Assembly (NCBI GenBank): GCA_945888375.1
Contig: CAMCZZ010000001.1
Coordinates: 1-64,000, forward strand
Length of the DNA stretch: 64,000 bases
Origin: Akkermansia muciniphila
GTDB taxonomy: Bacteria > Verrucomicrobiota > Verrucomicrobiia > Opitutales > Opitutaceae
Reading direction: 5' to 3'
Shown here: positions 11,578 to 49,025 of the stretch, in pieces
Layout of the letters: each line of letters opens with the position of its first letter
How positions within the stretch are numbered: position 1 is the first letter of the stretch
Notes under the pieces: generated by a model
Databases searched by the model: none
What the model was told of the DNA's origin: nothing
The model's input: the letters and a program-made list of their open reading frames with translations, nothing else
Program-made: the position numbers and the translations under genes

Positions 11578-11580
11578 GGG

Positions 11581-13607: not shown

Positions 13608-13614
13608 GGATGTT

Positions 13615-14748: not shown

Positions 14749-14754
14749 GGACGA

Positions 14755-20950: not shown

Positions 20951-20993
20951 GTCCGCCCGTGCCCACTCCGGATACCCGATTTAACCACCCCCA

Positions 20994-22592: not shown

Positions 22593-22594
22593 CC

Positions 22595-23653: not shown

Positions 23654-23657
23654 GCTG

Positions 23658-26227: not shown

Positions 26228-28875
26228 TCCTTCGCCTGCTATTCGCACTCCTCGCGTTGGCGTTTTCACTTCGTTGTGAAGCGGGCTACGAGGTCGGGCG
26301 GTTGCGCTGCGAGTTGACTGTGGATCCGCTTGGGGTGGATGTGACCAGACCCCGTCTTTCCTGGCAGATCCAGTCCGACGAACAGGCCCAGCGACAGACC
26401 GCGTGGCAGGTGCTGGTTGCGGCTTCGCCGGAGACTCTCGCCGAGGCGAAAGGCGATATCTGGGACAGTGGCCGGGTCGATGGGGATGGGACCGTGCTGG
26501 TGCCCTACGCAGGGCGGGAACTCGTCTCGTCAGAACAGGTATTCTGGAAGGTGCGCAGTTGGGACCGCGATGGACGCGCCTCGGAATGGAGCGAGACCGC
26601 GCGCTGGACCATGGGATTGCTCACGCCCCGGGAGTGGAGCGCAAAGTGGATCACCGCAGCCGGTGCGGAGCGCCTGGAAAACACCCTGTTGCGGCGCGAA
26701 TTCACCGTGCGTCCAGGTCTCCGACGCGCGCTCGCCCACGTGTCCGGACTGGGCCAATATGAATTATTTATCAATGGCGCCAAAGCCGGGCTCGACGTGC
26801 TTTCCCCCGGCTGGACCGATTATAAGGATACGATTCTATACGATACCCGCGACCTGACGGGTTTTTTGCGTGAAGGAGGGAACGCCCTCGGCCTTTCGCT
26901 GGGCAATGGCATGGCGCACGTGGTTCGTCCGGAGGGTCGCTTCGCGAAATTCAAGGGTTCCTTTGGTCCGCAGCGCGCGATCTTGCAACTCCGGCTCGAA
27001 TATGACGACGGCACCGTCGAGACCGTCTTCACCGACGAAACGTGGAAAACCCACGCCGGCCCGATCACGTTCTCAAGTATCTATGGCGGAGAGGACTTTG
27101 ACGCCCGCCTCGTCCAGCCCGGTTGGGATCGCCCGGGCTTCGACGACACCAAGTGGCCGCCCGCGGCGATCCATGCCGGAGAGAGCGGCGTTCTGCGCGG
27201 CCAGAGCCACGCGGCCGAAGCGATCGCCCCGATCGAGACCCGCGCGGTGGTCGCGACCCGTGAAATAGCGCCCGGCGTGGTGCTGTATGATTTTGGCCAA
27301 AACGCATCCTTCATGCCTCGCCTTACGGTCAGCGGACCCGCCGGATCGGTGGTGAAGCTGACGGGCGGAGAAGTCGTCAACGCCGACGGCACGATCAATC
27401 GTTCGACCATGGGAGGTGCGCATCGCGGCAGCGCCTGGTGGCAATATACGAAAGCCACCGACGGTCCGGAGACGTGGTTTCCCCAGTTTTACTACCTCGG
27501 ATCCCGTTATTTATATGCCGAGCTTTTACCCCCAACCGACGGCGGTGATCGACCCAAGATTGCATCCCTGGAGATGGTCGTGGTGCATTCCACGGTGGCG
27601 CCGGCCGGAAGCTTCGCGTGTTCGGATCCCACTCTCAATCGGATCCGCGACCTGGTGCGCTGGGCGCAGCGTTCCAACATGGTTTCGATCCTCACCGATT
27701 GTCCTCACCGAGAGAAGCTCGGGTGGCTTGAGCAGAATCACCTCAACGGCCCCGCCTTGCGCTATGAATGGGCGATCAACCGCCTCGCGGCGAAAAATGC
27801 GCTCGATATGGCCGAAGCGCAGACGCCCGAGGGTTTGATCCCTAATATCGCCCCGGAATATACTGTGTTCAAGGGCACCTATCGCGCCGCCGCCGAGTGG
27901 GGGGCCTCCTTCATCCTCGTGCCGTGGCAACAGTATGTTTTCACCGGCGATGCCGGCCCGCTTCGCGCGCATTACGAAGCGATGAAGCGCTACTTTGGCT
28001 ACTTGAAAACCCAGGCCGCCGGAGGGCTGCTGGCTGAGGGTCTGGGCGATTGGTATGACGTGACGCTTCAGAAGGCCGGTCGCGCCAATCTCACACCCCC
28101 GACCGCGACCGCGACCGCGCACTTCTGGCTCGATGCGCATACCTTGGCCAAAATCGCCGCCGTGCTTGGGCATTCCGACGAGGCGGCGATGTTCAAGGCC
28201 AAGGCCGAATCTATCCAGGCCCTTTATAATCGTGAACTCTTCAATGCAGCCTCCCCGGCGCTTTATGGTAGCGGGTCCCAGACCTCGCTCGCGCTACCGC
28301 TAGCGCTCGGTCTGGTTGATCCGGCGGAGAAATCAAACGTGTTAACCGCGTTGCTAAAGGACATAGAGACGCACGGCCACGCCACCACGGGTGCCATCGG
28401 CACGCCTTACCTCTTTCGCACGCTTACCGATGCCGGGCACGCCGACCTCGTGTATAGACTTATATGCAATCCGGATAAGCCAGGCTACGCTTACCAACTA
28501 AAACAAGGCAATACGGCGCTCGCCGAGTCGTGGAATACGAATCTCGGTGCTTCGCAAAACCATTTCTTTCTCGGTTCGGTTATCGAGTGGTTTTATCGTG
28601 ATCTGGCTGGTATTCAACCGGATGAAAGGGCTCCGGGGTTTAAGCATATTATTATTCGGCCGCATCCATTGGAAGGTCTTGATTGGGTGGAGGCCTGGCA
28701 TGAAACACCCCACGGGCGGGTGGCGGTGCGCTGGGAAAAGGCCCCAAGCAGATTGCTGCTAAGAACCCTAATTCCACCTAACACGACTGCTACCGTGCGG
28801 ATGCCATCGAAGAATGGCTCCGTAGTCCTCCACGAGGTGGAATCAGGGGCGCATAGTTTTGAATCCGCGTGGTAG
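26224..28875 (+). CDS. GH78 alpha-L-rhamnosidase
   Basis: An 883-residue exported enzyme (signal about 1-20). Order: N-terminal Bac_rhamnosid-type beta domains (LRCELTVDPLGVDVTRPRLSW; DYKDTILYDTRDLTGFL), a middle domain with YDFGQNASFMPRLTVSGP, then the (alpha/alpha)6 catalytic barrel with the signature DCPHREKLGWLEQ at about 492-504, in which Glu497 is the probable general acid, and a C-terminal sandwich ending GLDWVEAWHETPHGRV. GH78 inverts alpha-L-rhamnosyl linkages, common in rhamnogalacturonan. It closes the plus arm, overlapping the previous gene by ATGA. Assignment to the family is firm; linkage specificity is unknown. Confidence 0.93.
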   Translation: MILRLLFALLALAFSLRCEAGYEVGRLRCELTVDPLGVDVTRPRLSWQIQSDEQAQRQTAWQVLVAASPETLAEAKGDIWDSGRVDGDGTVLVPYAGRELVSSEQVFWKVRSWDRDGRASEWSETARWTMGLLTPREWSAKWITAAGAERLENTLLRREFTVRPGLRRALAHVSGLGQYELFINGAKAGLDVLSPGWTDYKDTILYDTRDLTGFLREGGNALGLSLGNGMAHVVRPEGRFAKFKGSFGPQRAILQLRLEYDDGTVETVFTDETWKTHAGPITFSSIYGGEDFDARLVQPGWDRPGFDDTKWPPAAIHAGESGVLRGQSHAAEAIAPIETRAVVATREIAPGVVLYDFGQNASFMPRLTVSGPAGSVVKLTGGEVVNADGTINRSTMGGAHRGSAWWQYTKATDGPETWFPQFYYLGSRYLYAELLPPTDGGDRPKIASLEMVVVHSTVAPAGSFACSDPTLNRIRDLVRWAQRSNMVSILTDCPHREKLGWLEQNHLNGPALRYEWAINRLAAKNALDMAEAQTPEGLIPNIAPEYTVFKGTYRAAAEWGASFILVPWQQYVFTGDAGPLRAHYEAMKRYFGYLKTQAAGGLLAEGLGDWYDVTLQKAGRANLTPPTATATAHFWLDAHTLAKIAAVLGHSDEAAMFKAKAESIQALYNRELFNAASPALYGSGSQTSLALPLALGLVDPAEKSNVLTALLKDIETHGHATTGAIGTPYLFRTLTDAGHADLVYRLICNPDKPGYAYQLKQGNTALAESWNTNLGASQNHFFLGSVIEWFYRDLAGIQPDERAPGFKHIIIRPHPLEGLDWVEAWHETPHGRVAVRWEKAPSRLLLRTLIPPNTTATVRMPSKNGSVVLHEVESGAHSFESAW

Positions 28876-29386: not shown

Positions 29387-32300
29387 ATGAAACCCACCCC
29401 TCGTAATACGCAAACTTCCACCGCAGCCCGCTCTCGTAAAGCATATGCAGCTGCCGTTTCCGCTCTTGCCGCCGCCATGTTGGCGCTTGGCGCCTCTGAT
29501 CTTCAGGCCGCCGCTGGCACCTGGCAGGCGAATGCCGCCGATCAAGGCGTGAGCGTCACGATCACTGGCGACGGCGCTTCCTGGGCAGTCGTCCCTAGTC
29601 TGGCGGAAGGCGACGCTGTCTATCTTGGTTTCAGCAGTGGAGTGGGCCTCGGGACTAATTTCAGTTACTACTACGCGGTTGGCGTGGGTTCTACGCCCAG
29701 TGCCGCTGTGCGCTTTTCCCAGTCCCCGGGTGCGGGCACTTTTGCCGCGTCGGCAGCGGCGACCAATCCATTGACGGTGAGCAAGATCCCCAAATGGTTT
29801 ACCGCCGGAAATTGGAGCGGAGATGTGGTGCCGAATGGCATCGATGATGCCGCCACCATTGCGACCCAGTCGAACATGACGGCGGTGCTGTTGGATCGTG
29901 ACGTCACCTTAGGTTCCTTGACGGTGGATACCTCGACCTGTGCCCCGCACATCGTGGATTCCTTGGGCGCGCCCGTCGTCGGCACGAACGGATTGAGCAT
30001 CTTGGCTAGTTCTCGGACTAGCGGCCCCCTGTCGACTTTGACCTTTAAGCGTTCGACTGGAACGCCTACCGTCACGCTCAGCGGCGGTAACAGTCTTTTG
30101 TTTAGCGATTCCAAATTGGGTAATGGAACTGGTCCTGGCGCCGCGAGCGCCAAGCTGATCGTGCTGGGTAATCAGGGGTTGACGATTGATAATCAGAACC
30201 CTGTTTCCGCACCGATTGCGATCAATTCACGTTCCCTTGAAACTCCTTCATCGAGTGCAGGGACTTACGGCGTCGGGCCTGTTCGGTTCGGGTTCGGCCT
30301 CGATTGGTCGGGTTTCAGTGGTGATCTTACTTTGCAGCAGGGCGTCTTTCAGACCCTCGCCGGTGGCACGCTAAATAATAACCTTAGCAGCTTGCCGATG
30401 AATAGCAAAGTGGTTCTTGGCACCGGCACTAACACTGCGCGGCTGGAAATTGCCGGCTCTATCGGTCAGACCGTAATTCGCGGTCTTGAAAGCAGCAGCG
30501 CCGCCAGTTCCGTAATCAACACCGGTGCGGTCTCGGGAACGCCCGGACTGGCGACCTTGGAGATTGGTTCCTACGGAACGGCCTCAGATTTCTATACTTT
30601 CGCGGGCAACATTGGCGACAATACCCATGTCTCCACGGTCGCGAGCGCTCCGGCGATCCGTTTGGTCAAGGCAGGCCGCGGCACACAGGTGCTGTCAGGC
30701 ATTAACAACATGAATGCCACGCAGTTAAATTCAGTGAGCGTGGCCGTAAACGGCGGCAAACTTTCGCTGGGCACGACCGGCGCGATCGGCACCGTTACCA
30801 GTGGTCAGGGCGCGACGAATGTGGACAGTTCTATCATCGTAAAGAACGGTGAGTTCGAGATTTCCGGTCTCGGTGTTTCCGGTCCGCGTTCGCAGACCTT
30901 TGGCGGTTACTTGATCTTCGGCTCCGCGCTCCCCCAAACCACTGGTCCCGACGCCAATCAGGCAGCCCAAAGCACGAGCTTCAGCACTCTGACCGTCATC
31001 GCCGATCCCGTGCAGCCTGCTACGATGACTTTTGGTCAGCTCAAGCCGCGCAACTACGGAGGCACGGCCACTCCGAACACGAACGGCGTCACCATGCTAT
31101 TTCGCGGGACCAATCTCGGCGCAACGCCCGGCGCTGGCGTGGGCACGATCAATTTCACCTCGGCACCGGTCACGGGCGGTGGAATCCTCAACGGCAGTGG
31201 AGCCTTAGGATCCACGCAGGCCCCCGTCTTAAAAGGGGCTCTGGCCGATACGTCGCCGACCGGCACCGGCATTGGATTCGCCACCTACGATCCGACCAAT
31301 GGGGTGCGTTTGCTTAGCTCCGCCGAAAAGAATACCGTGGCTAGCGGCCCGGCTTACGATGCCGTGCCGAGCACCGACAATGTGGTGTTAAACTTGGGTG
31401 CGGATGAGGCCATCACCGGTCACCGCAGTAACACCCTGCAAATCATCAATACGAGCGGCTCCAGCCATACGGTGACGAATACCGGCTCCGCCCTCAATCC
31501 GGCGAACGGCTTCCTTTTCTCGGGCACGGATCCGATTGTGGTCACCGGTGGCCGGATAACGGGCACGGTCGATACGGATGCCGAGGATGTCGTTTTCCAT
31601 TCTCTGAATACTGCTTCAGCTGGTGTTACGATTCAGTCCCCGGTCGACAACTTTGCGAAGAGCTATCTCACGCGCCAGGGCTGGGTAACTTTCAGTGGCA
31701 TTGGCAATTTCCGCATCGAAGGCACCCAGACCGTCGGCTTTGTGGGCGCTACCACGGCGCTAAGCAGCTTTGGCGGTTTGGCCTTCAATAGCACCGGAAT
31801 AACCACGCTGGCCGCTCCGGTGATCAATGCTTCAAGTTTCAATATTAATCAGGGCACGGTGAAGCTGGATGCCGGCGCATCCTGGACCAATACGCCCCGC
31901 CTCCTCATCGCTCCCGAAGGCAAGTTCGACTTGAACGGTGTCGGCAGCACCGCGACCACGAATCGCTTCACGGATATCAACTCCGCGGTTATCGCCGCCG
32001 GTTTGTCGCTCAACCCGATTTCTGGCGAGGTGACCAACAGCAGCCCCACCACCGTGGACCTGATTCTTGCCACCGCTACCAACGGCGCTACTGGCCAGGC
32101 CTTCTACGGGACCGTTACCGGCAACCTGAATCTGGTTATCGACAAGTCAGCCTTCAACGGGGCTAATACAACCTATACTTATGCTGTTCAAGCGTTTTCG
32201 AATGTAAATACCTACACCGGTTCGACCCAGATTCGTTCCGGAACCCTCAACCTAGCGCGCGGCGGATTGCTGCCTGCGACCACCGTGGTCACGCTTGGAC

Positions 32301-33814
32301 CGGTGGCGGATACCGGTGCCGCCAGCTACCCGAACAGCACGCTGCAACTCGGTGATGCCAACGGTTCGACCACCGGTGCGGTTCGGCAGGAAATCGCCGG
32401 CTTGTATGCCACTGGCATCGGCGCCGGCCTTGGCACCGCGACCAACGGCAACGGAACCTCGGCCGTCATCAACTCCAGCTCGATATTGAGTCAGTTGACG
32501 CTCAACATCGCTTCCGGCGTGGATAACGTTTATGTCGGCAATCTGGGCATCACCCCCGCAGCCAACGGTAGTAATTCGAACCTGTTTACAATTCGGAAGA
32601 TTGGTGGTGGATCCTTCGAGCCGACGGGCGCGATCACCGCCTACACGGGCGGCACGATTATACAGGGCGGTGTATTGCGGGTGTCGTCCGACGCGAAACT
32701 AGGTCAAATCGGGCCGTTGACCGGCGCGGCTGGGAGCTCGGGCGCCTCGTTTGCTCCGCAGTCGGCCTTCGCCAATAATATCATTCTGGATGGCGGCACG
32801 CTCCAGACGACCACCACGACGAACTTCGTCTTGGACGCCAAGCGCGGCATCGGTCTTGGCCCGACCTCCGGCGCCACCGGCGGCACGGGCACGCTCTGGG
32901 TGGACTCGGGCATCACCCTGACCTACGCCGGCGTCGTCGCTTCGGCGGGAAACACCGGCGCGCAGACCTTGGTCAAGAACGGTAGCGGCCACCTCGCCTT
33001 GAACGGGGCGAACACGTTCACCGGAACCACCACCATCGCCGCCGGTTCGCTGGGCGGCACGGGTTCGCTCGCCAGCGGGGTATCGGTCTCGTCCGGCGCC
33101 TCACTTGCCCCGGGCAGTGGCGGAGTCGGCACCTTCACGATCGGAGGCGCGCTCACCCTCGGCACCGGCGCACAGTTGTCCGTGGATCTCGACGCCCCCG
33201 GCACCTCCGACTTGGTTCAGGTTGGCGGCGCGGTCAGCGCGACCGGATTGACCACGATCAATGTCAACCCTCTCGCCGGGTTTGCGGCCGGCACCTACAC
33301 CCTGATCTCGGGCACGGCGCCGATCAGCACGACCAACCTCAAGGTCGGCACGCTTCCGGTCGGTTTCCGGGGCACGCTCGCCTCCGTGGGCAACACGCTC
33401 ACTCTTAACATCGCTCCGGGTAGCCCGCTCTCCTCCTTGGAATCCTGGCGCCAGGATAACTTTGGCAGCAGCGAAAACACCGGTAACGGTGCTGATGCCG
33501 CAGATTATGATCATGACGGCGTGAGCAACTTGGTCGAATACGCTACGGGAACGAGTCCTGTGGTCGCCGGCAGCGGCGCTTACAGCGCCTCACGCTCGGG
33601 CAACTACCTCACGCTCACCTATACCCGGGTCGCCGACACTACGCTCACTTATACCGTGGAGGGCTCCAGTGATCTCGCGACTTGGTCCGCGGTGTCTGCG
33701 GCCAATAATCCGAGCACCGGTGCGGCTAATACGGCAGGCCAGGTAACCGTGACGGATAACGTCTCGACCGCTTCTGCTTCGCGCCGGTTCCTGCGTCTCA
33801 AAGTCAGTTACTAA
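29387..33814 (+). CDS. Autotransporter-associated beta-strand-repeat surface protein
   Basis: A 1475-residue exported protein; N-terminal signal with AAAVSALAAAMLALGASDLQA. Most of it is a Gly/Thr/Asn/Ser-rich beta-helix with recurrent strand-repeat units such as VKNGSGHLALNGANTFTGTT, YTGGTIIQGGVLRVSSDA and TYTGSTQIRSGTLNLARGG, diagnostic for the autotransporter-associated repeat family. No transmembrane beta-barrel follows. Instead residues from about 1345 hold a calcium-loop-like stretch (DYDHDGVSNLVEYATG) and a beta-sandwich ending in RRFLRLKV, a module shared with two pectate lyases at 39.7 and 43.1 kb. Function unknown; a surface adhesin or polysaccharide-contact protein is plausible. 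It is monocistronic, with its own terminator. Confidence 0.83.
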   Translation: MKPTPRNTQTSTAARSRKAYAAAVSALAAAMLALGASDLQAAAGTWQANAADQGVSVTITGDGASWAVVPSLAEGDAVYLGFSSGVGLGTNFSYYYAVGVGSTPSAAVRFSQSPGAGTFAASAAATNPLTVSKIPKWFTAGNWSGDVVPNGIDDAATIATQSNMTAVLLDRDVTLGSLTVDTSTCAPHIVDSLGAPVVGTNGLSILASSRTSGPLSTLTFKRSTGTPTVTLSGGNSLLFSDSKLGNGTGPGAASAKLIVLGNQGLTIDNQNPVSAPIAINSRSLETPSSSAGTYGVGPVRFGFGLDWSGFSGDLTLQQGVFQTLAGGTLNNNLSSLPMNSKVVLGTGTNTARLEIAGSIGQTVIRGLESSSAASSVINTGAVSGTPGLATLEIGSYGTASDFYTFAGNIGDNTHVSTVASAPAIRLVKAGRGTQVLSGINNMNATQLNSVSVAVNGGKLSLGTTGAIGTVTSGQGATNVDSSIIVKNGEFEISGLGVSGPRSQTFGGYLIFGSALPQTTGPDANQAAQSTSFSTLTVIADPVQPATMTFGQLKPRNYGGTATPNTNGVTMLFRGTNLGATPGAGVGTINFTSAPVTGGGILNGSGALGSTQAPVLKGALADTSPTGTGIGFATYDPTNGVRLLSSAEKNTVASGPAYDAVPSTDNVVLNLGADEAITGHRSNTLQIINTSGSSHTVTNTGSALNPANGFLFSGTDPIVVTGGRITGTVDTDAEDVVFHSLNTASAGVTIQSPVDNFAKSYLTRQGWVTFSGIGNFRIEGTQTVGFVGATTALSSFGGLAFNSTGITTLAAPVINASSFNINQGTVKLDAGASWTNTPRLLIAPEGKFDLNGVGSTATTNRFTDINSAVIAAGLSLNPISGEVTNSSPTTVDLILATATNGATGQAFYGTVTGNLNLVIDKSAFNGANTTYTYAVQAFSNVNTYTGSTQIRSGTLNLARGGLLPATTVVTLGPVADTGAASYPNSTLQLGDANGSTTGAVRQEIAGLYATGIGAGLGTATNGNGTSAVINSSSILSQLTLNIASGVDNVYVGNLGITPAANGSNSNLFTIRKIGGGSFEPTGAITAYTGGTIIQGGVLRVSSDAKLGQIGPLTGAAGSSGASFAPQSAFANNIILDGGTLQTTTTTNFVLDAKRGIGLGPTSGATGGTGTLWVDSGITLTYAGVVASAGNTGAQTLVKNGSGHLALNGANTFTGTTTIAAGSLGGTGSLASGVSVSSGASLAPGSGGVGTFTIGGALTLGTGAQLSVDLDAPGTSDLVQVGGAVSATGLTTINVNPLAGFAAGTYTLISGTAPISTTNLKVGTLPVGFRGTLASVGNTLTLNIAPGSPLSSLESWRQDNFGSSENTGNGADAADYDHDGVSNLVEYATGTSPVVAGSGAYSASRSGNYLTLTYTRVADTTLTYTVEGSSDLATWSAVSAANNPSTGAANTAGQVTVTDNVSTASASRRFLRLKVSY

Positions 33815-34158: not shown

Positions 34159-37071
34159 CTATCGGTTCAATGTAACCACTGCCCCAGCGGAGAGGTGAAG
34201 CGGAACGGCTTCGTTGTTCAGGTGAAGCAAAGCAGGACGACCGAGGGCGGACTCAATTTTAACGGTCGTGATGCGGCCCTCTTTCCAAGTGAGGTCGAGG
34301 GTGAAGCCATCCCGGGCGCGCAGGCCTTTGACGGTGCCGGAGGGCCACGCCATCGGCAGAGCAGGTAGCAGGTCGATGATGACCTTGCCGTCGGGGGTGT
34401 TTTGGTGGCTTTGGAGCAGCATCTCGACCACCCCGGCGGCGGCGCCGAAGTTGCCGTCGATCTGGAAGGGGCCGCAAAGGTCAAACAGGTTGGGCAAGGT
34501 GCGCTTGGCGAGCAGCAGGCCGAACTGGCGGTAGGCCATCTCCCCGTCGCCGACGCGGGCCCACAGCGGCATGCGCCAGGCGTAGCTCCACCCGGTAGAG
34601 CCGTCGCCTCGCCACTTGAGCAGCACCTTGGTGGCGTCGTGGATTTTCGGGTCGGCGGGGGTGATGTCCGCTCCCGGGTAGAGCGCCCAGAGGGGGGACA
34701 TATGGCGGTGGGCGTTGTCGGGCACGTCCACGTCTTCGAGCCACTCTTGGAGCTGGCCGTGCCGACCGATCCGGTTGGGCGGGAGCTTAGGCAGCAGACC
34801 CTCGAGTTGGGCGGCCAGGTCGGCGTCCTGGTTCAGTTCACGAGAGGCGGCGATGGTGGCGGTCCAGAGGAAACGGATGAGCTGGTTGTCCATCGTGGGA
34901 CCGACGGTGGTGGGGCCTTGTTCGGGCGAGTGGGAAGGGGAGGTGAGCAACCAGCCGGTTTTCTCGTCGCGCACGAGGTAATCGACGAAGAAAAGCGAGG
35001 CCTCGCGCAGGGTGGGGTAGGCGCGTCGGGCGAGGAAGTCGCGGTCGCGGGTGAAGAGCCAGCGCTCCCAGAGATGGTGGCAAAGCCAAGCGCCGCCGGT
35101 GGGCCAGAGGCCGTCGATGTTGTTGATCGGGGCGGTGCCGCGCCAGAGGTCGAAGTTGTGGTGCAAGACCCAGCCGCGCGAATGATACAGTTGGTCGGCG
35201 GTGCGGGCGCCGCTTACGCGCAGATCGTCGATGGCGTCGAAAAGCGGCTCGTGGCACTCGCCGAGTCCGGTGAGCTCGGCGATCCAGTAGTTCATCTGAA
35301 CGTTGATATTCGTGGTGTATTTGCCCTCCCACGGAGGGTTCAGCGAATCGTTCCAGATGCCCTGAAGATTCGCGGGCTGGGTGCCGGGACGGCTGCACGC
35401 GATGAGGAGGTAGCGGCCGTAGTTGAAGTGGAGGGCGGCGAGGGCAGGATCGGTGTCGAGCGAGGCGCCTTTGCGCAGGCGCTGGATACGCGCGTCGGAG
35501 GGCAGGACCGAAAACTCGGTCCTTTCGAGGTCGAGGTTGGATCGGCGGAAGAGTTTGCGGTGGTCGGCGATGTGGGTCGCGCTGAGCGCGGCGTAGTCGC
35601 GGGTGGCGAGCGCGTTGAGGTAGGCGGTGCAGCGCACGGCGGGGTCGGCGGAGATGTCTTCCCAGGTCTTGAAGCTGGTGGCGGCGACGAGGAGGAGCGT
35701 GGCGGAGTCGGCGCCTTCGACGCGGAGCGACCGGTCCTCGGCGCGGGTGGTTCCTCCGTCAGCGAGGACGCGCAGGGTGGCGGCGAAGCGCATGCCGTCT
35801 GGCTCGACTTCGCCGGCGAGTTCGAGGCGGGGCGCGCCGGCGGGCGGGACCGTGGTCGCGGAGCTTTTGTGCGGCGAGTCGAGCCGGACTCCGAAGGTGA
35901 GTGCGCCGGGCCGGTTGGCGGACAGGCGTATGGCGATGACGTTGTCGGGATAGCTGGCGAGGACCTCGCGGGTGTAGGTGACGCCGCCCACCTCGTAACG
36001 CGTGGTGGCGACGGCGGAATCGAGATCGAGTTCGCGCCGGTAGTCGGCGGGGGCCTCGTGGCCGGGGAAGGCGAGGTGGATGTCGCCGAAAGCCTGGTAG
36101 GGTTTTTGGCGGACCGGATCGCTGAGCATTTTGGCGCGGGCGAGGTCTTGCGCTTCGGTGATCTTGCCCTCGGCGAGCAGGGCGCGGACTTGAGGCACGA
36201 TGTCGGCGGAGCCCGCGCGCACGTAGTTGCGGGGTTTGCCGGCCCAGAGCGTGTCTTCGTTGAATTGGATACGCTCCTCGGCGACGCCGCCGAAGACCAT
36301 CGCACCGAGGCGGCCGCCGCCGATCGGGAGAGCCTCGGTCCATTTTTCCGCTGGTTTCTCATACCAGAGGTGGGTGGTGGCCTTTTCGCGGGCGGCGAAG
36401 GTGCGGCGGGCTTGTTGCGCGTCGATGCCCTGCCGGGCGAAGTAGACCTCCTCGATGCGGATTTTGTATTTTTTGAAGAACGCGGATTTTTCCTTCATCG
36501 AAACCGCGTCGATGGCTTCGGCCCGGGCGGCCTTCAGTTCGCTCAGGACAACAGCTTTCTGTTCGTCGGTGAGGGTTGGGAAAATCTCCAGATAGGCGGC
36601 GTAGGTGACGGCGACCTTGTCGATGGTGAGCACGTCCTCGATCTGCTCGAGCTGGACGGGCGAAAGCAGGTGTCCCAGCGCGGAGAAGGTTTTCTCCCGA
36701 ACGGGGCGAAAGCCAGCGTAGAAGGTCGAGATTTGCTTCAGCGCGGCGTCCGCGGCGGCGGTGTCCTTGGCGGAGCGGGCCTGGTCGAAGGCGGTCCAGA
36801 GCGGCGCGATGGCGCGGTCGTTATCGCGGTGCCAGGCGGAGAGGGCGGCGAAGTGCTGGTCGAGGAGAATGCGGACGCGGGTCTCCGTCGCGGGTTCGGA
36901 GAGCTTCAGTGCTTCCAGGATGGCACGGGTGTTTTTGGACGACTCGGCGGCGGGCTTGTTCGCCTGGACCATCGGGACGGGCGCGACGTCCGCGTGGCGC
37001 GTGGACGAGTCGGTGGTGCAGGCGCCGACGAAGGGAAGCAGCAGGGCGAGGAGTGAGCGCGGGAGACGCAT
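34159..37071 (-). CDS. DUF3826-GH95 fusion: alpha-L-fucosidase/galactosidase family enzyme
   Basis: A 970-residue probable lipoprotein (signal ending FVGAC). Residues about 45-225 match DUF3826: LSPVQLEQIEDVLT, YLEIFPTLTDEQKAVVLSEL and the KEKSAFFKKYKIRIEEVYF helix correspond segment by segment to the free DUF3826 protein at 48324-49025. Residues about 235-970 are GH95: LWYEKPAEKWTEALPIGGGR at the start, QFNEDTLWAGKPRNY, NINVQMNYWIAELTGL in the (alpha/alpha)6 barrel, and HRHMSPLWALYPG near the catalytic base. GH95 hydrolyses alpha-1,2-L-fucosyl or alpha-L-galactosyl ends, both found in pectin and hemicellulose. It is the last gene of a pectate-lyase operon, 10 bases after its neighbour. The fused N-domain is unusual for GH95. 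Confidence 0.88.
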   Translation of the reverse strand: MRLPRSLLALLLPFVGACTTDSSTRHADVAPVPMVQANKPAAESSKNTRAILEALKLSEPATETRVRILLDQHFAALSAWHRDNDRAIAPLWTAFDQARSAKDTAAADAALKQISTFYAGFRPVREKTFSALGHLLSPVQLEQIEDVLTIDKVAVTYAAYLEIFPTLTDEQKAVVLSELKAARAEAIDAVSMKEKSAFFKKYKIRIEEVYFARQGIDAQQARRTFAAREKATTHLWYEKPAEKWTEALPIGGGRLGAMVFGGVAEERIQFNEDTLWAGKPRNYVRAGSADIVPQVRALLAEGKITEAQDLARAKMLSDPVRQKPYQAFGDIHLAFPGHEAPADYRRELDLDSAVATTRYEVGGVTYTREVLASYPDNVIAIRLSANRPGALTFGVRLDSPHKSSATTVPPAGAPRLELAGEVEPDGMRFAATLRVLADGGTTRAEDRSLRVEGADSATLLLVAATSFKTWEDISADPAVRCTAYLNALATRDYAALSATHIADHRKLFRRSNLDLERTEFSVLPSDARIQRLRKGASLDTDPALAALHFNYGRYLLIACSRPGTQPANLQGIWNDSLNPPWEGKYTTNINVQMNYWIAELTGLGECHEPLFDAIDDLRVSGARTADQLYHSRGWVLHHNFDLWRGTAPINNIDGLWPTGGAWLCHHLWERWLFTRDRDFLARRAYPTLREASLFFVDYLVRDEKTGWLLTSPSHSPEQGPTTVGPTMDNQLIRFLWTATIAASRELNQDADLAAQLEGLLPKLPPNRIGRHGQLQEWLEDVDVPDNAHRHMSPLWALYPGADITPADPKIHDATKVLLKWRGDGSTGWSYAWRMPLWARVGDGEMAYRQFGLLLAKRTLPNLFDLCGPFQIDGNFGAAAGVVEMLLQSHQNTPDGKVIIDLLPALPMAWPSGTVKGLRARDGFTLDLTWKEGRITTVKIESALGRPALLHLNNEAVPLHLSAGAVVTLNR

Positions 37072-37081: not shown

Positions 37082-39664
37082 TTAGTTTTTGCGCGGCGAA
37101 GCGGCGAGGATACGGACTCCGACGGTGCGGGTCATGGTGTCGCCGGCCGAGTCGGTGACGGTGAAGGTGAAGCCGGCGAGCGCGTCTTCTCCGGTAGCGG
37201 GCGTGAAGCGGGCGTAGCGACCGTCGATCAGGGTGACGGTGCCGTTGACGGGGGCGGTGAAGGTATAGCGCGGTCGGGTCTTCAGGTAACCGCGGCTCAA
37301 GGCGTGCAGGTCGATGTTGATCGAGGCTCCGGCGGTGCAGTCCACATGGGGCCGGGCCATCCACTCCAAGTAATCTTCCAGCAGCGTGTAGGCGTCGCCG
37401 TCGCGGTCGGCGTTGGAATCGGAGAAGTCCCCGATGGCAGAGCTTGGATTCGTGCGGTGGAGGGTTTCCCACCAATCGGGCAGACCGTCGCGATCGGTGT
37501 CCCAGTCCGCCGCGCGGGCGACGGTTCCATAGTCTTCCCAACCGCCGACGTCCTGCTGCGAGTTGGGGAGGCCCGGCGCTCCGCCGAAAGGTCCGCTGCC
37601 TGAATAGGTGTGGGTGCCGTCGAGCGTTTCACCGATCACGCGCTGGTCGAGGTCGTCGCTCAGCGGCCGGTTGCACCCGACGTCGGACAACACGTCTTTG
37701 TAGGCTTGGGTGGCGGTCTGGATCGTCGCATGGGACGGGAAAAACGGCCGGTCCGCCCAAGGGCTGTAGGGCGGGTTGGAGTTTTCGGGCAGGACGCCGC
37801 GGTTCTCGGTCGCGACGGCGCGTCCCTTCTCCTGCTCGTTCTCCGCGAAGTGGCCGGGCATGAAATTGCCGGCCATGTAATACTGCTGTTTGCCGGGGAA
37901 GCCGCCGTATTGCGGCCGGAGGGCGATGAAGATCTTCGAGGCGGGGCCGGGTTTGTAGTAGTTGTTGACGAAATTCACCTCGCGGGCGCCGCCGTCGGTG
38001 GTGCGGTGTCCCCAATTGTAGACGACGTTGTTGAAGATATCTAGGCGGCCGCCGTAGGTGCCGTCGGGGTCGAGGCCGCCGGCGAGGCTCCAGTTGCGAC
38101 CCTCGTTGTGGGCGAGGAGGTTGTGGTGGAGGCTGGCGATGTCGCCGCCGACGCTCGCGGCGTAGCCGTGCGCGGAGCCGGGAGGGTAGTTCTTGTGGCC
38201 GGCGATGTTCAACGCCTCGGCGATGAGCGTGCGCTGCAAGGTGAGGTTTTTCGCGCTACGCGTGCTGATGCCCTCGTCCTGGCCCCAGCTTACGGAGCAA
38301 TGATCCATGATGACGTGGTCCACGCCCGCCAGGCCCGAGCCGTTTTGCGTTTCGCCGCTGAGGTCTCCGACACGGATGCGGACGTAGCGGCAGATCACAT
38401 CGCGCGCGCCGCTCATGCCGAACATCTGGTTCCGCACGCAGATGCCTTTGCCCGGCGCGGTCTGACCGGCGATGGTGATGCTGGGCTGGGTGCCGGTGAT
38501 GATGAGGTCGGACTTCAGCGAGATCAGACCGCCCACGTTGAAGATCACGGTGCGCGGGCCGTGGTTTCCCTCGATGGCGTCGCGCAGGCTGCCGGGACCG
38601 CTGTCGTCCAGGTTGGTGACGTGAACGACGACGCCGCCGCGTCCGCCACGGGCGAAGCGGCCGTAGCCCTCGGCGCCGGGGAAAGCCAGGCGGCGGGGCC
38701 GGAACCACCAGGTGCCGCCTTTCGTGACGGTGCCGTCGGACGCGATCTCGTCGACGCGCCAGTGGTAGGTTTGGCGCGGATCGATGCCGGAGAGCGGGTG
38801 GCGGATCGCGGTTTGATTGCCCTTGAACTCGGGGGAACCTCGGGTGGCGGCGTCGACGGCGGCGGCGTCGGTGCCGAAGTAGACATCGTGCGAGGCGGCG
38901 CCGAGGACGGCAGGACCCCAACTTAGGACGAGGGATCCGGTGTCGGCGTCCACGTGTTCGTCGGCATTGGCGGGGGAGGGATTGCTGGCGAGGGCCTTGG
39001 AATTGGAGGTATCGATCTCGAAGCCGTTTATATGGATGTTTTTGTTGGGCTGCGAGCCGCTGGTCTCCGCCTTGATCAGGACAACGATATCCTGACCGGC
39101 GGTGGCGGTGAAGGTGAGGTAGGCAGTGGTGGCGAGGTTGTTGTCGGCGACTTGGGAAGTGACCGGCAGGTCGTTGACGAGCTGGGTGCCGTCGACCGAA
39201 ATATCCAAGGGGGCGGGGGCCGAGGACGGCGAATCCCAGTTGTTGAGATAGAGCAGCAGGCTGTGGGGGCCGGCGGAGAGTCCGCCCAGGCGCATCTCAA
39301 TCTGCGCCCCGGCTTCGCCGTCGGCGACCTTGAGGCCGTCGGCGGTCAATCTGACGTTATACGCGGTGCTCTGGACTCCGCTTTTCCAGTAGCCGGACTG
39401 GAGGGCGGAGCCGATGGAGCCGACACGGGTGAAGGTGACCGTGACGCCGTCCTCGAAGGTGCGGCTGGTGGTGTTGCCTCCGGTGAACCATTTCTGGGTC
39501 GTGGCCCAATCGGTGAAGGCGGGATCAAGGCCCTCCAAGAGGGGGCGTCCGCTGTTGCTGATATCGACTTTCAGGGGGCCGGCGTGCAGGACGGAGGCGA
39601 CTAGCAACAGGCCGGTGCAAAGGGTGGCGCGAAGGCCACGACGAAACGATAAGCTGGCGGACAT
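37082..39664 (-). CDS. Secreted PL1-type pectate lyase, paralogue C (no Calx-beta)
   Basis: An exported protein of 860 residues (signal 1 to about 28). Order: an N-terminal beta-rich domain (about 29-215, LKVDISNSGRPLLEGLDP to INGFEIDTSNS), an Fn3-like domain (about 220-310, HVDADTGSLVLSWGPAVLGA), and a PL1 right-handed beta-helix (about 315-650) with FPGAEGYGRFARGGRGG, DSGPGSLRDAI, TIAGQTAPGKGI and the metal/substrate segment MDHCSVSWGQDEGIS. Then come a calcium-loop-like stretch (DTDRDGLPDWWETLHRTNP) and a short Ig-like C-terminus ending RILAASPRKN. It cleaves polygalacturonate by beta-elimination. It lacks the Calx-beta and terminal sandwich of its two neighbours. I start at the ATG at 39664; upstream frame is not conserved. 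Confidence 0.87.
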   Translation of the reverse strand: MSASLSFRRGLRATLCTGLLLVASVLHAGPLKVDISNSGRPLLEGLDPAFTDWATTQKWFTGGNTTSRTFEDGVTVTFTRVGSIGSALQSGYWKSGVQSTAYNVRLTADGLKVADGEAGAQIEMRLGGLSAGPHSLLLYLNNWDSPSSAPAPLDISVDGTQLVNDLPVTSQVADNNLATTAYLTFTATAGQDIVVLIKAETSGSQPNKNIHINGFEIDTSNSKALASNPSPANADEHVDADTGSLVLSWGPAVLGAASHDVYFGTDAAAVDAATRGSPEFKGNQTAIRHPLSGIDPRQTYHWRVDEIASDGTVTKGGTWWFRPRRLAFPGAEGYGRFARGGRGGVVVHVTNLDDSGPGSLRDAIEGNHGPRTVIFNVGGLISLKSDLIITGTQPSITIAGQTAPGKGICVRNQMFGMSGARDVICRYVRIRVGDLSGETQNGSGLAGVDHVIMDHCSVSWGQDEGISTRSAKNLTLQRTLIAEALNIAGHKNYPPGSAHGYAASVGGDIASLHHNLLAHNEGRNWSLAGGLDPDGTYGGRLDIFNNVVYNWGHRTTDGGAREVNFVNNYYKPGPASKIFIALRPQYGGFPGKQQYYMAGNFMPGHFAENEQEKGRAVATENRGVLPENSNPPYSPWADRPFFPSHATIQTATQAYKDVLSDVGCNRPLSDDLDQRVIGETLDGTHTYSGSGPFGGAPGLPNSQQDVGGWEDYGTVARAADWDTDRDGLPDWWETLHRTNPSSAIGDFSDSNADRDGDAYTLLEDYLEWMARPHVDCTAGASINIDLHALSRGYLKTRPRYTFTAPVNGTVTLIDGRYARFTPATGEDALAGFTFTVTDSAGDTMTRTVGVRILAASPRKN

Positions 39665-39725
39665 GGATAGGGGCAGGAGGGAGGGGATCGAAAGGGCGGA
39701 AAGTAGGGCGCTGTGTCCCGCAGTC

Positions 39726-42700
39726 TCATTGAACACGAAGACGAACGAAGAGGCGCGGAGGGGCGGGTGCGCCACTGATGGTGGCGAGCGCCTCGACAGT
39801 CTCGGGATCGGCGCCAGGGGAGGAGACGACGGAATCGGCAAACGTGACCGAGTGGGTGCCGTCGTTATCTCCATCCAAGCGCCAAGTGGTCATATCGGTG
39901 GACCACTGCAAGACGCCGAGCACATCCGGTCGGTTTTTCGCGCGAGGGAACCGGATGGTCAGAGCGCCTGAGCCGGCCGCGGTGGCGAGCAGAGAAGATA
40001 CGCTGGAAGATGCAGGATCGGAGCCGAAGTAGTATTCGAGAAGGTTGGGTAGCGAATCGCCGTCGGCATCGGCGGTCAGGGAGCGTTTTGACGCGTCGGC
40101 GATCGCGGTGAAGAAGAACGCCTGCGCGGGCGCGTCGCTGATCGTGGCGGTGGCGGACGCAGGGCTGCCGGAGTTGAAATCGACGCTGCCGCCGAGGGTG
40201 AGGGTAACGCTCTCGGCGCCTTCGGCGAGGGCGTCGGGCAGGGCGGTGAGCGTGACGACGGCGCTGCTCTGGCCGGCCGGAATCGTGACGTTGGGGGCGA
40301 AACCCGAGTAGTCGGTGCCCGACGTCGCGATGCCGGAGGCGACGAGCGGGACGGTGAGCGCGGAGGTGGTGTCGCCAGTGCGGGAGATCGTGAAGGCGAC
40401 GCTCGCATCGGAGCCATATTCGCCGGCGGCGGGGTCGGTCGCGGTGAGCGTAACCGAAGGAATCACGACAGCGCCGGCGCCTAGGACGCGCACGCCGATG
40501 GTGCGGGTCATGGAGTCGCCGGCGGAGTCGGTGACGGTAAAGGTGAACCCGCCGAGCGCGCTCGCGGAGGCGGAGGGCGTGAAGCGGGCCTTGTTACCGT
40601 TGACGAGGGTGACGGTGCCGTTGATGGGCGCGGCGAGCGCGTAGCTCGGCGAGGTCTTGGAATAGCCGATACTCAGGGCGGCGAGATCGACATCGACCGG
40701 GGCGCCGGCGGCGACGGAGGTGTTGGGTGCGGCGAGCCAGTTGAGATACTCCTCGAGGTTGGTGTAGCCGTCGCGGTCGGCGTCGGCGTTGGACTCGGTG
40801 AAGTCGCCGACGGTGGAGTTGGGGTTGGTGCCGTGAATGGCCTCCCACCAATCGGGCATGCCGTCGTTGTCGGTGTCGAAGCCGGCGGGGCGGGTTTCGT
40901 TGCCATAGTCCTCCCAACCGCCGACGTCGTTGGTGGTGTCGGGCAGGCCCTTCTTTCCACTTACGCTGCCGGTGTAGGTGGTGGTCCCGTTGAGGGTCTC
41001 GTTGATGATGCGAGTGTCGCGAGCGTCGATCTGCGGTTGGTTGCAGCCGACGTCCGAGAGGACCTGCTTGTAGGCGTTGGTCGCGGTGTGGATCGTCGCG
41101 TAGGAGGGGAAAAACGGAGTTTCGGCCCAGATGTTGTAGGTGACAGAACCGGTGAAGGTGCGCCCTGAGGATTGGTTCGAGAGGCCGAAGTAGCCGGGCA
41201 TGACGTTGCCGGCGAAGTAGAATTCCTGGGTGCCGGTGAAATTGCTCAGCTGGGCTTTCAGGGCGACGAAGATACGGGAGGATGGGCCGGGTTTGTAGTA
41301 GTTGTTTACGAAATTGATCTGATGTCCGGTGCCGTCAGTAGTGCGGCCGCCCCAGTTGTAGACGACGTTGTTGAAGATATCCATCTGGCTGGAGTAGGTG
41401 GTGCCGCCGCTGCCGTTGAACTCGTCGCCGACGCTCCAATTCCGGCCTTCGTTGTGCGCGAGGAGATTGTGGTGAAAGCTGCCGATCTTGCCGCTGATCG
41501 TGGCGGCGTAGCCGTGGGCGGTGCCGGCCGGGTAGTTTTGGTGGCCGGCGACGTTCAGCGCTTCGGAGAGGTTGCAGCGCTGGAACGTGATGTTCTGTCC
41601 GCTCCGCGAGCTCACGCCCTCGTCGAGGCCCCAGCCGATGGAACAGTGGTCCATGATGCTGTGATCGGCGCCGGCCATGCCGGAGGCGTTCTGGGTCTCG
41701 CCGCTTTCCTTGCCGACGAGCAGGCGTAGGAAACGAAACACGGTGTCGCGCGAACCGCTCATGGCGAGTTGCTGACGTTTCACGGTGATTCCTTTGCCCG
41801 GAGCGGTCTGCCCGGCGATGGTGATCGGAGGCGTGGTGTTGTTGAGGATGATGTCGGAGTTGAGGGTGATGAGACCGCTGACATCGAAGATGACGGTGCG
41901 CGGGCCCGAGCCGCCCTCGATCGCGGCGCGGAGCGAACCGGGGCCGGAGTCGTGGAGGTTGGTGACCCTGATCACCGCGCCGCCGCGACCGCCGCGGGCG
42001 AAACGGCCGTAGCCCTCGGCGCCGGGAAAGGCGATGCGACGCGGGCGAAACATCCAGACGGTGCCTTTGGTCGCGCCGCCGGCGGCCGAAACCTCGTCGA
42101 TGCGCCAGTAGTAGGGTTGGTCGGGTGTGAGTTCGCTGACCGTGAAGGTATTCGCGGTGAGGTTGCCCTTGAACTCCAGCGACGCGGTGGTGGCGGCCTC
42201 GACCGAGGATATGCTGGTGCCAAAGTAGACGTGGTGGGAGGTGGCGCCGAGGACGGCGGTGCCCCAGCTGAGGGTGATCGAGCCGGTGTCGGCGTCGGCG
42301 TGCTCGTCGCCATTGGACGGCACGGGATTGTTGGCCTGGGCCTTGGTATTGGGCACGTCGATATCAAAGCCGTTTAGGTGAACGTTCTTGTAGGTCTCCG
42401 TGCCGCTGAGCTCGGCTTTGACGAGCACGACGATGTCCTGCCCGGCGGTCGCGTGGACGGAAAGGTAGGCGGTGGTGGCGAGGTTGTTGTCAGTGACGCG
42501 GGTGGAAACAGGCAGGTTGTCCACGACCTGGGTGCCGTTCACGAAGATATCGAGCGGGGCGTTGCTCGTGGGTGCGTCCCAGTTGTTCAAGTAGAGCAGC
42601 ACGGTGTGATCGCCGGGACTCAGGCCGGCGATGCGCATCTCGATCTGGGCGCCGGCGTCCCCGCCGTTCACCTTGATGCCGTCGGCGGTGAGCTTGATGT

Positions 42701-43010
42701 TGTAGAGGGTGCTCTGCACGCCCTCCTTCCAGTAGCCGGGCTGGAGAGCGGTGCCGACCGTGCCGGCACGGTTAAAGGTGATCGTGACGCCGGAGAACGT
42801 GGCGGAGATGGAATTGCTGCCGGACGGAAACCAAGCCGTGGTGGTGGACCAGGCGGTGTATCCCGGATCGAGGCCTTCGGAGATCGAGCGGCCGGTGTTG
42901 TTGATGTCGATCTGGAGTGGAGCGGCGGACGTGAATCCACCGGTCGCAAAAAACAGAAGCGCGGTAAAAAAAACAACCAACGAACGAGAGAAACGCAGGG
43001 GGTAAGGCAT
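39726..43010 (-). CDS. Secreted PL1-type pectate lyase, paralogue B
   Basis: A 1094-residue exported lyase (signal about 1-29) with the same layout as paralogues A and C: N-terminal beta domain (LQIDINNTGRSISEGLDP), Fn3-like domain (HADADTGSITLSWGTAVLGA), PL1 beta-helix (FPGAEGYGRFARGGRGG, TAPGKGITVKRQ, MDHCSIGWGLDEGVS) and calcium-loop stretch (DTDNDGMPDWWEAIHGTNP). It continues with an Ig-like domain, a Calx-beta domain (about 865-970, SGTDYSGFAPNVTIPAGQSS) and a last module of about 115 residues (DADGDSLPNLLEYYFGSDP to FVRLRVQ) shared with the autotransporter-repeat protein. Gaps of 61 and 64 bases separate it from its paralogues, consistent with one transcript. Confidence 0.88.
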   Translation of the reverse strand: MPYPLRFSRSLVVFFTALLFFATGGFTSAAPLQIDINNTGRSISEGLDPGYTAWSTTTAWFPSGSNSISATFSGVTITFNRAGTVGTALQPGYWKEGVQSTLYNIKLTADGIKVNGGDAGAQIEMRIAGLSPGDHTVLLYLNNWDAPTSNAPLDIFVNGTQVVDNLPVSTRVTDNNLATTAYLSVHATAGQDIVVLVKAELSGTETYKNVHLNGFDIDVPNTKAQANNPVPSNGDEHADADTGSITLSWGTAVLGATSHHVYFGTSISSVEAATTASLEFKGNLTANTFTVSELTPDQPYYWRIDEVSAAGGATKGTVWMFRPRRIAFPGAEGYGRFARGGRGGAVIRVTNLHDSGPGSLRAAIEGGSGPRTVIFDVSGLITLNSDIILNNTTPPITIAGQTAPGKGITVKRQQLAMSGSRDTVFRFLRLLVGKESGETQNASGMAGADHSIMDHCSIGWGLDEGVSSRSGQNITFQRCNLSEALNVAGHQNYPAGTAHGYAATISGKIGSFHHNLLAHNEGRNWSVGDEFNGSGGTTYSSQMDIFNNVVYNWGGRTTDGTGHQINFVNNYYKPGPSSRIFVALKAQLSNFTGTQEFYFAGNVMPGYFGLSNQSSGRTFTGSVTYNIWAETPFFPSYATIHTATNAYKQVLSDVGCNQPQIDARDTRIINETLNGTTTYTGSVSGKKGLPDTTNDVGGWEDYGNETRPAGFDTDNDGMPDWWEAIHGTNPNSTVGDFTESNADADRDGYTNLEEYLNWLAAPNTSVAAGAPVDVDLAALSIGYSKTSPSYALAAPINGTVTLVNGNKARFTPSASASALGGFTFTVTDSAGDSMTRTIGVRVLGAGAVVIPSVTLTATDPAAGEYGSDASVAFTISRTGDTTSALTVPLVASGIATSGTDYSGFAPNVTIPAGQSSAVVTLTALPDALAEGAESVTLTLGGSVDFNSGSPASATATISDAPAQAFFFTAIADASKRSLTADADGDSLPNLLEYYFGSDPASSSVSSLLATAAGSGALTIRFPRAKNRPDVLGVLQWSTDMTTWRLDGDNDGTHSVTFADSVVSSPGADPETVEALATISGAPAPPRLFVRLRVQ

Positions 43011-43074
43011 GTAAAAGTATTGTTGGAGCCAAGGGCCTAGGGATGGCCCAAAGGTTTCCCTCTCCGTCCCGGAT

Positions 43075-48323: not shown

Positions 48324-49025
48324 TTACGGTGCGGATTTGGCCTCGGCGTTTTTGCGGGCGAACATTTCGCGTTCCGCCTGTTTCATGTCGTAGCCGGCTT
48401 TTGAAAGGTAGTTGTTGATGCGACCCTTGTATTTGCCGAACCAGGCGTGTTTTTCCTTGGATGAACCGGCGTCAAGGGCGTGTTCACGCGCTTCGGTGAG
48501 CCAGGCGAGGATCTGGGTGCTTTGCTCGTTGGTGAGGTTTGGCAGCATTTCCTGATAGACGCGAAAGGTATTGGGCAGCACGCCGTAGGTGATGCCGTCC
48601 TTGATTTGCTCGACTTGGCCCGGCGTGAGTTCGGTGGAGAGGCGGGCGATGAAGGCGTAGTGTAAATCGGCTTGGCGGGCAGCGGCGGTATCGCGCGCGC
48701 TCTGGGCGGCGGGTTCGCTGGCGGCGGCTTTGGCGGCATTGAGCGCTTCGTCGCGGGCATCGTGGATGGAAGCGAGCCTGGTGTATTGTTGGGCAACGAT
48801 ATCGCGGATGCGGGCGTGCTGCTCGCTCGAGGGTAGGCTCAGTTTTGCGACGATCTTTTCCGCCCGCTGGATCACTTCCTCGGAGGCTGAATTGGTAGCT
48901 GGTGCTTTGGCCGGAAGCTCGTTTGGGGCCTTGGCCTCCTCCGGCTTGGTAAGGGCAGTAGCGGGGTGAACTACGAGCAGCGTGGAGATAAAGGCGACTG
49001 AGACGTTGAGGAACGGGGCGCGCAT
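48324..49025 (-). CDS. DUF3826 protein, free-standing and exported
   Basis: A 233-residue protein with a signal peptide (MRAPFLNVSVAFISTLLVVHPATA) and a helical domain of about 170 residues: IQRAEKIVAKLSLPSSEQHA, a long helix with IHDARDEALNAAKAAA, LTPGQVEQIKDGIT, MLPNLTNEQSTQILAWL and the charged KEKHAWFGKYKGRINNYLSK. This matches DUF3826, known mainly from pectin-degrading gene clusters, with no established activity. It is the first gene of the minus-strand pectate-lyase operon. The same domain is fused to GH95 at the end of the operon. The ATG at 49025 is preferred over a TTG at 49043. Confidence 0.85.
   Translation of the reverse strand: MRAPFLNVSVAFISTLLVVHPATALTKPEEAKAPNELPAKAPATNSASEEVIQRAEKIVAKLSLPSSEQHARIRDIVAQQYTRLASIHDARDEALNAAKAAASEPAAQSARDTAAARQADLHYAFIARLSTELTPGQVEQIKDGITYGVLPNTFRVYQEMLPNLTNEQSTQILAWLTEAREHALDAGSSKEKHAWFGKYKGRINNYLSKAGYDMKQAEREMFARKNAEAKSAP

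Follow-up and report, generated by a model that had tools for sequence, protein, structure and literature searches.

DUF3826 has been described in Bacteroides thetaiotaomicron, where BT1017 carries it at the C-terminus of a pectin methylesterase and BT1022 is a stand-alone DUF3826 protein (PMC7939467). In the accessible sections of that report, the isolated BT1017 domain showed no activity towards the esterified substrates that were tried, BT1017 reduced to its catalytic part performed within about two-fold of the whole protein, and neither BT1017-DUF3826 nor BT1022 bound apple rhamnogalacturonan II (RG-II) in calorimetry. Two free members have solved structures, BT1022 itself (PDB 3G6I) and BVU2916 of Bacteroides vulgatus (3KDW), and the family lies in pectin gene clusters of both Bacteroidota and Verrucomicrobiota. 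Here, we analyse 64,000 nucleotides of an Akkermansia muciniphila assembly (GCA_945888375.1, contig CAMCZZ010000001.1, positions 1 to 64,000; hereafter the window), which encode a DUF3826 domain fused to the N-terminus of a glycoside hydrolase family 95 (GH95) enzyme at 34159-37071 and a free DUF3826 protein at 48324-49025. The initial annotation had recognised both, and its statement that the family has no assigned function overlooks the published work on BT1017 and BT1022, as far as its accessible sections go.

The window resembles the B. thetaiotaomicron system in that a pectin enzyme with a fused DUF3826 and a free copy occur in the same organism, and the copies are the same pair of lineages, which we call type A (here the free copy) and type B (here the fused one). 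Bacteroides faecis is similar, with one copy of the fused kind (L152) and one of the free kind (L151) 10 kb apart. The partner in BT1017 is, however, a methylesterase, with the domain at its C-terminus and in subclade B3, whereas the window fusion joins an N-terminal domain of subclade B1 to a GH95 enzyme and, unlike BT1017, bears a lipoprotein-type signal. The combination of a fused with a free DUF3826 in a single pectin degrader thus has a precedent with a different partner enzyme, and we found no description of a GH95-DUF3826 fusion in the open-access literature on DUF3826 and BT1017/BT1022.

The fused and the free domain

The two proteins and their parts map to the window as follows.

34159-37071, minus strand: GH95 enzyme with N-terminal DUF3826, 970 amino acids, ATG start; last gene of the presumed operon
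37018-37071, minus strand: predicted lipoprotein-type signal, residues 1-18, ending ...PFVGAC (own pattern rule)
36379-36936, minus strand: DUF3826 domain, type B, residues 46-231 (Pfam, predicted fold, tree)
34210-36369, minus strand: GH95 module, residues 235-954 (Pfam; catalytic residues aligned to XacAfc95)
48324-49025, minus strand: free, predicted secreted DUF3826 protein, type A, 233 amino acids from ATG, with a TTG frame reaching 49043; first gene of the presumed operon

The fused frame exists as annotated, and the three motif pairs by which its N-terminal part had been matched to the free protein are all present in the translations. Searches with the DUF3826 hidden Markov model (PF12875, curated Pfam cut-off 25 bits) gave significant matches for both copies. 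Residues 46-231 of the fusion score 123.0 bits (E 2e-35) over profile positions 6-186 of 186, and residues 55-233 of the 239-amino-acid TTG frame of the free protein, which has a signal-like start, score 207.6 bits (E 2.3e-61) over positions 2-186. The two domains are 38% identical over 180 amino acids (BLASTP, E 1e-23), and no further DUF3826 copies were found in the rest of the genome (3.22 Mb, 39 contigs). By sequence, the nearest solved DUF3826 relative of the fused domain is 6GOC (BT1017), while the free protein is nearest to 3KDW and 3G6I. BVU2916 (3KDW) is like the free protein in both fold and sequence (E 1.1e-40), differing in that it is a Bacteroidota protein and has no fusion.

AlphaFold2 models, each built from an alignment of 6 sequences, are all-helical and confident across the domain for both the fused copy (predicted local distance difference test, pLDDT, 87.8; predicted template modelling score, pTM, 0.78) and the free copy (pLDDT 83.6, pTM 0.73). 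Compared with 3KDW and 3G6I, the fused model gave Foldseek E values of 3.3e-7 and 2.1e-6 and VIA Z-scores of 17.7 and 17.6, and the free model gave E values of 2.0e-13 and 3.5e-13 and Z-scores of 23.3 and 23.1; the next best unrelated solved structure reached only Z 6.6 for the fused model and 7.6 for the free one. The fused model is the looser match, with a Foldseek root-mean-square deviation (rmsd) of 7.4 and a template modelling score of 0.66-0.69 by query length, and a VIA rmsd of 2.9-3.1 over 177-179 residues. The comparison revealed no differing folds, and both proteins probably share the DUF3826 fold of 3KDW and 3G6I. Across 50 domains, T122, R149 and K169, and also Q106, D112, T115 and Y126 (A3 numbering), are invariant or near-invariant polar residues.

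In the fusion, the DUF3826 match is followed almost without a linker (about 3 residues) by the GH95 N-terminal domain (PF14498, 235-469), catalytic domain (PF22124, 493-885) and C-terminal domain (PF21307, 887-954), all above their cut-offs. Pfam gives only these DUF3826 and GH95 domains, with no alpha/beta-hydrolase module of the BT1017 type, and an NCBIfam scan of the protein gave no match. Residues N588, N590 and D872 align with N397, N399 and D690 of XacAfc95, whose catalytic roles are described in the accessible part of PMC8245568. The GH95 module with its catalytic Asn, Asn and Asp is shared with XacAfc95 (7KMQ, an alpha-1,2-L-fucosidase; phmmer E 1.2e-209) and with BACOVA_03438 (4UFC, an alpha-L-galactosidase; E 1.4e-185), but the solved sequences of both match the GH95 part of the fusion only. 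The enzyme is predicted to be an exo-acting alpha-L-fucosidase or alpha-L-galactosidase. A reading of its specificity from the Thr at the site of BbAfcA His419 was dropped: this Thr was once proposed as a galactosidase mark, and it is also present in the fucosidase XacAfc95 (accessible sections of PMC8245568 and PMC10063614).

The two copies bracket a row of six same-strand genes, as first proposed, with the free gene at its start, four lyase-like genes in between and the fusion gene at its end. From strand and spacing we presume that the six form one operon, and the pectin context was borne out.

At a detection limit of E up to 0.001, and in genome samples that overlap, DUF3826 turned up in 16 of the 57 relatives screened, in 14 of 387 genomes from the phylum, 27 of 150 from the family, 19 of 395 from the B. 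faecis phylum and 23 of 245 from the order of genome G921. Of the 15 genomes of the genus, 6 contain it, and each of these 6 encodes a free type-A copy as well as the GH95 fusion, which we saw in no other genus. In four of the six, the two genes share a contig and are no more than about 12 kb apart. Identity to the window across the fusion genomes is 68-82% for the DUF3826 domain and 78-91% for the enzyme. An assembly artefact as the source of the fusion is ruled out, since the fused frame occurs in six genomes, one of them a single contig.

Two DUF3826 lineages and their enzyme partners

Trees of 80 and 109 domains (one short domain, L128, and three duplicates having been dropped) split DUF3826 into types A and B. 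The free window protein and the free B. faecis copy (L151) fall in type A, and the fused window domain falls in type B with the BT1017-like protein of B. faecis (L152); some free proteins that branch near the base of type B are set apart as A'. Type B is likely a single clade, with support of 93 in the 109-domain tree, 92.6 in a 63-row subset and 99 in the 80-domain tree. It comprises the subclades B1, B2 and B3, of which B3 is the BT1017 kind and B1 unites the six GH95 fusions (support 99) with free copies from Limisphaerales, that is, Verrucomicrobia subdivision 3 (support 97).

Duplication of the free gene within the genus as the source of the fused domain was rejected (approximately unbiased test, p 8.0e-6). 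Forcing the six fused and the genus's six free domains together costs 132.6 log-likelihood units, in a test on 63 of the 109 rows from which 3 long or truncated rows were omitted and in which A, A' and B3 were thinned randomly. Judged from the trees, the fused and free copies belong to two old lineages that separated before this genus and are not recent duplicates. Because the lineages split before the genus, and because the same A and B pair occurs in Bacteroidota, the two copies do not represent a simple internal duplication.

The survey for other fusions that had been suggested drew on 125 frames fetched with wide flanks, representing 123 genes. Besides the six GH95 fusions, it returned two methylesterase fusions, one fusion to an AXE1-type esterase (L188) and one tandem DUF3826 protein (L305). 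Of the other 115 frames, 110 have a signal-like start just before the domain by our own rule and 5 do not. Two of the three fusion partners are alpha/beta-hydrolase esterases, which show no BLAST similarity to each other. The AXE1-type fusion, at L188:7597-9798 in a single genome of the same family (G429), carries a B2 DUF3826 at the C-terminus of a PF05448 esterase. The tandem protein, at L305:9349-10590 in the genome of L105 (Botryobacter ruber), is a 414-amino-acid frame with two DUF3826 domains; we rejected it as proof of A-B pairing, both halves being nearest to type A.

Lipoprotein-type signals, called by our own pattern rule for a signal with a lipobox cysteine, were present in six of six fusions, with Cys18 as the cysteine in the window. 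By the same rule they are rare in unfused DUF3826 proteins (0 of 5 free B1, 0 of 10 B2, 1 of 20 B3, 2 of 49 A and 1 of 19 A') and were called in 0 of 20 unfused GH95 proteins, a figure that depends on the rule, which passed over two GH95s with a cysteine stretch (LIAC after Arg in L150, SAGC in L186). Judging by this predicted signal pattern, the fusion was apparently accompanied by a relocation of the enzyme to a membrane.

Unfused arrangements of the same genes were also found. In L263, from another Verrucomicrobiota genome in the order of G921, a type-B DUF3826 gene and a GH95 gene share an ATGA overlap and follow each other as in the fusion, although this copy is placed beside B1 with a support of only 81. 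In L040, a free B1 gene and a GH95 frame converge, with 21 bases between them. The fetched stretches around the free B1 rows L223, L224 and L261, two of them near contig ends, contain no GH95, nor does the one around L318. Seven other regions of the family (L038, L124, L125, L145, L189, L194 and L200) encode, in this order, a type-A DUF3826, a lyase and a GH95 without the domain. Seven of 25 B3 rows, these seven being Bacteroidota regions, have a free B3 gene and, 1.1-1.4 kb away on the same strand, a gene for a BT1017-like methylesterase (L231, L232, L284 and L287 among 20 rows of a first set; L309, L313 and L314 among 5 of a second), which mirrors BT1017, where both are fused; two more of the 25 rows are fused.

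Type A is a free protein, mostly encoded in the vicinity of pectate lyases; its Bacteroidota genes often adjoin SusC/SusD. Of the 49 type-A rows, 35 have a lyase homolog on the same strand within 1 kb and 41 have one within 6 kb; the rows represent 47 genes, as two that are truncated by contig ends in L061 and L104 recur as L233 and L234. For A' rows, lyases lie within 1 kb in 6 of 19 and glycoside hydrolases of family 43 (GH43) in 8 of 19. A SusC-like frame, called by our own pattern, is found within 400 bases of type A in 9 of 23 regions and within 5 kb in 14, these regions being nearly all from Bacteroidota, with 2 from Phycisphaerae and 1 from a genome titled Williamsia; four SusC/SusD pairs near type A were confirmed by Pfam. 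In the Williamsia sp. genome (that of L114), a metagenome-assembled genome whose title makes it an actinomycete, a SusC-like frame sits next to DUF3826 in L319, and the title or the binning may be wrong. Type B, by comparison, is found as a free protein, as the gene neighbour of a side-chain enzyme, or as part of such an enzyme (GH95, pectin methylesterase or AXE1-type esterase).

The two types tend strongly to occur together. Type A or A' is present in 42 of the 47 genomes with type B, and 28 genomes have A or A' only. These counts come from a list assembled by hand from searches and tree classes, in which the newest rows take the class of the nearest classified row, the same-genome pairs G334/G971 and G499/G919 are counted once, genomes with weak or broken matches (such as G052, G329, G980, G1104, G1133 and G1186) are left out, seven Bacteroidota genomes (G544, G548, G729, G745, G839, G847 and G866) are omitted, and a second, fragmentary match in G1115 is not classed. 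Among 21 genomes whose sole selection criterion was a distant GH95, DUF3826 is present in 9 (in one as fragments only), and the 6 of these with type B all have A or A'. Among close GH95 relatives, DUF3826 was found in 6 of 8 genomes of previously undetermined status, and 4 further genomes had already been counted as positive. The co-occurrence supports a functional link between the types and does not prove binding; shared habit and kinship may explain much of it.

Possible roles of DUF3826

We tentatively propose that DUF3826 is a non-catalytic, secreted, all-helical accessory module common to pectin-degrading enzymes, with protein-protein docking as its most likely task. The initial annotation had suggested that the domain binds pectin fragments, binds a partner protein or anchors enzymes in the periplasm, and of these roles contact with a putative partner protein is the likeliest. 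Pectin-fragment binding is weakened by the failure of BT1017-DUF3826 and BT1022 to bind apple RG-II (accessible sections of PMC7939467), and the fusion's own lipoprotein-type signal is a likelier anchor than the domain. In favour of an accessory module, the fusion has been kept in six genomes, including the one-contig genome, and each of the three fusion enzymes carries a domain of another type-B subclade: GH95 with B1, the AXE1-type esterase with B2 and the methylesterase with B3. The unfused gene pairs, the lyases close to type A, the A/B co-occurrence and the published behaviour of BT1017-DUF3826, which is inactive on the substrates assayed, dispensable for catalysis and without RG-II binding, point the same way.

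Under this proposal, the fused type-B domain would hold the GH95 in a membrane-bound assembly and the free type-A protein would bring in or organise the lyase, and the lyase and the exo-acting GH95, brought together at the membrane, could then work on the same pectin fragment. Binding of type A to type B is the least certain step. If the docking reading is true, DUF3826 would organise pectin-degrading enzymes in at least two phyla, a role that has gone unrecognised. A more specific form of the proposal, which we consider unlikely as it stands, is that A and B are the halves of a dedicated docking pair from which a small pectin-degrading complex is built at the membrane, with A belonging to the lyase operon and B carried on the side-chain enzyme. 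Each lineage would have grafted B onto the enzyme it needed there (in Bacteroides a methylesterase, in the present Opitutaceae genus GH95 and in another an AXE1-type esterase), and the pair would be a simple counterpart of cohesin and dockerin made from two paralogous helical domains. The value of the finding lies in the A/B pattern, with its strong tendency of type B to accompany type A; two lineages, three enzyme partners and both fused and unfused pairs make the role of DUF3826 directly testable.

Several observations weigh against docking. The methylesterase works in vitro without its DUF3826, according to the accessible sections of PMC7939467, and a DUF3826 protein of unclear function is listed in Fusobacterium nucleatum in the accessible part of PMC13076502. 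The fusion and the free copy are about 300 kb apart in G010 and on two contigs in G006. Five genomes (G450, G472, G488, G1052 and G1115) have B without A, and the two types may co-occur only because both mark pectin degraders. Homologs of the window's cluster genes lie within 6 kb of just 2 of 10 B2 and 11 of 20 B3 rows and of none of the rest, a count that omits other pectin enzymes such as the family 28 glycoside hydrolases beside L141 and L201. The idea that type B always lies in pectin clusters is false, 8 of 10 B2 and 9 of 20 B3 rows having no such homologs in that range, and type B may do something more general.

The surroundings of type A, including the SusC/SusD-lyase gene sets of Bacteroidota, would also suit an oligosaccharide-binding module that keeps pectin fragments close to the enzyme or delivers them in the periplasm, with a target other than intact RG-II. 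The solved DUF3826 structures were deposited as putative sugar-binding proteins, and the polar residues strongly conserved across 50 domains fit such a function. These deposited names are, however, predictions, many type-B genes lie outside pectin clusters, and the negative calorimetry for both BT1017-DUF3826 and BT1022 disfavours plain pectin binding (accessible sections of PMC7939467); we regard a sugar-binding role as possible but rather doubtful. The same residues (T122, R149 and K169; Q106, D112, T115 and Y126) could instead point to catalytic activity on pectin, such as the removal of an ester or a sugar, but no enzyme is among the strong fold matches and the isolated BT1017 domain did not act on the esterified substrates tested (PMC7939467, accessible sections), which leaves a catalytic function with little probability. 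A neutral passenger, left by an accidental gene fusion that the enzyme tolerates, would fit the lower conservation of the domain (68-82% identity to the window, compared with 78-91% for the enzyme) and the finding of the GH95 fusion in one genus only. It would not account for the whole domain with its conserved motifs being kept in six of six genomes, for the separate fusions to two other enzymes or for the unfused adjacent pair in the same order in L263, and we think it highly unlikely.

Spy, CpxP, CnrX and the VirG-like proteins are kin. DUF3826 might be a remote cousin of these helical proteins, acting as a periplasmic chaperone or stability factor that became fused to some of its clients, an explanation we find distinctly improbable. 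A profile of 6 sequences (A1) matched the Salmonella VirG-like protein 5IHF with E 1.9e-4, but the match drops to E 0.29 with a 50-sequence profile, in which a CAM1 entry (36HB) outscored it with E 0.0055. CnrX is among the weak structural matches of the free model, with a best VIA Z of 7.5, which is within noise for helical bundles, and Metal_resist (PF13801) was detected in 2 of 50 members with a best E of 0.024, level with the scores of unrelated Pfam families. That the catalytic part of BT1017 works without its DUF3826 also speaks against a chaperone (PMC7939467, accessible sections). Absence of a family from the fold-search lists is compatible with kinship. As an observation in its own right, the N-terminal half of DUF3826 shows a weak, unstable likeness to 5IHF and CnrX that becomes fainter as more sequences are included.

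Other genes of the cluster

Between the two DUF3826 genes lie the four lyase-like genes, and a block of further predicted carbohydrate-related genes stands on the plus strand.

46575-48305, minus strand: pectate-lyase-like protein PLd, separated by 18 bases from the preceding free DUF3826 gene; matches the solved pectate lyase 9BUJ (E 1.5e-38)
43075-46422, minus strand: pectate-lyase-like protein PLc, longest frame; the true start may be further in
39726-43274, minus strand: pectate-lyase-like protein PLb, longest frame, overlapping PLc; the true start is probably further in
37082-39874, minus strand: pectate-lyase-like protein PLa, directly before the fusion gene
16746-28875, plus strand: MGH1-like glycoside hydrolase, DUF6298 protein, apiosidase-like protein with DUF5060, GH43, SSF transporter, BNR protein and a family 78 (GH78) rhamnosidase

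Homologs of PLd widely adjoin type-A DUF3826 genes. The other three form a tandem of long lyase-like proteins (37082-46422, minus strand), two of which have Calx-beta domains and PelZ-like matches, the latter far under the PelZ family cut-off. PLa shares 65% identity with PLc over 866 columns and 34% with PLd, and no Pfam lyase family matched it. The gene content of the plus-strand block suggests a complex, RG-II-like pectin as the substrate of the cluster.

Homologs of the MGH1-like glycoside hydrolase and of the DUF6298 protein (16746-20950, plus strand) recur near type-A DUF3826 genes and lyases in both phyla, and DUF6298 may be a further pectin protein. A row on the minus strand (10582-16299) encodes PdxA-like, sugar-acid kinase-like (SBD_N/NBD_C) and DHDPS-like proteins, an iron alcohol dehydrogenase and an SSF transporter; it resembles a sugar-acid pathway and could serve an unusual pectin sugar. 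Convergent with the fusion gene is a gene for a PATR-repeat protein of 1475 amino acids (29387-33814, plus strand). L131, L132 and L133 have a homolog of it close to the fusion, and a different PATR protein is encoded in the vicinity of the GH95-DUF3826 pair of L040. Further along the window, a DUF1800 protein with TSP3 repeats is encoded at 55991-58717 on the minus strand.

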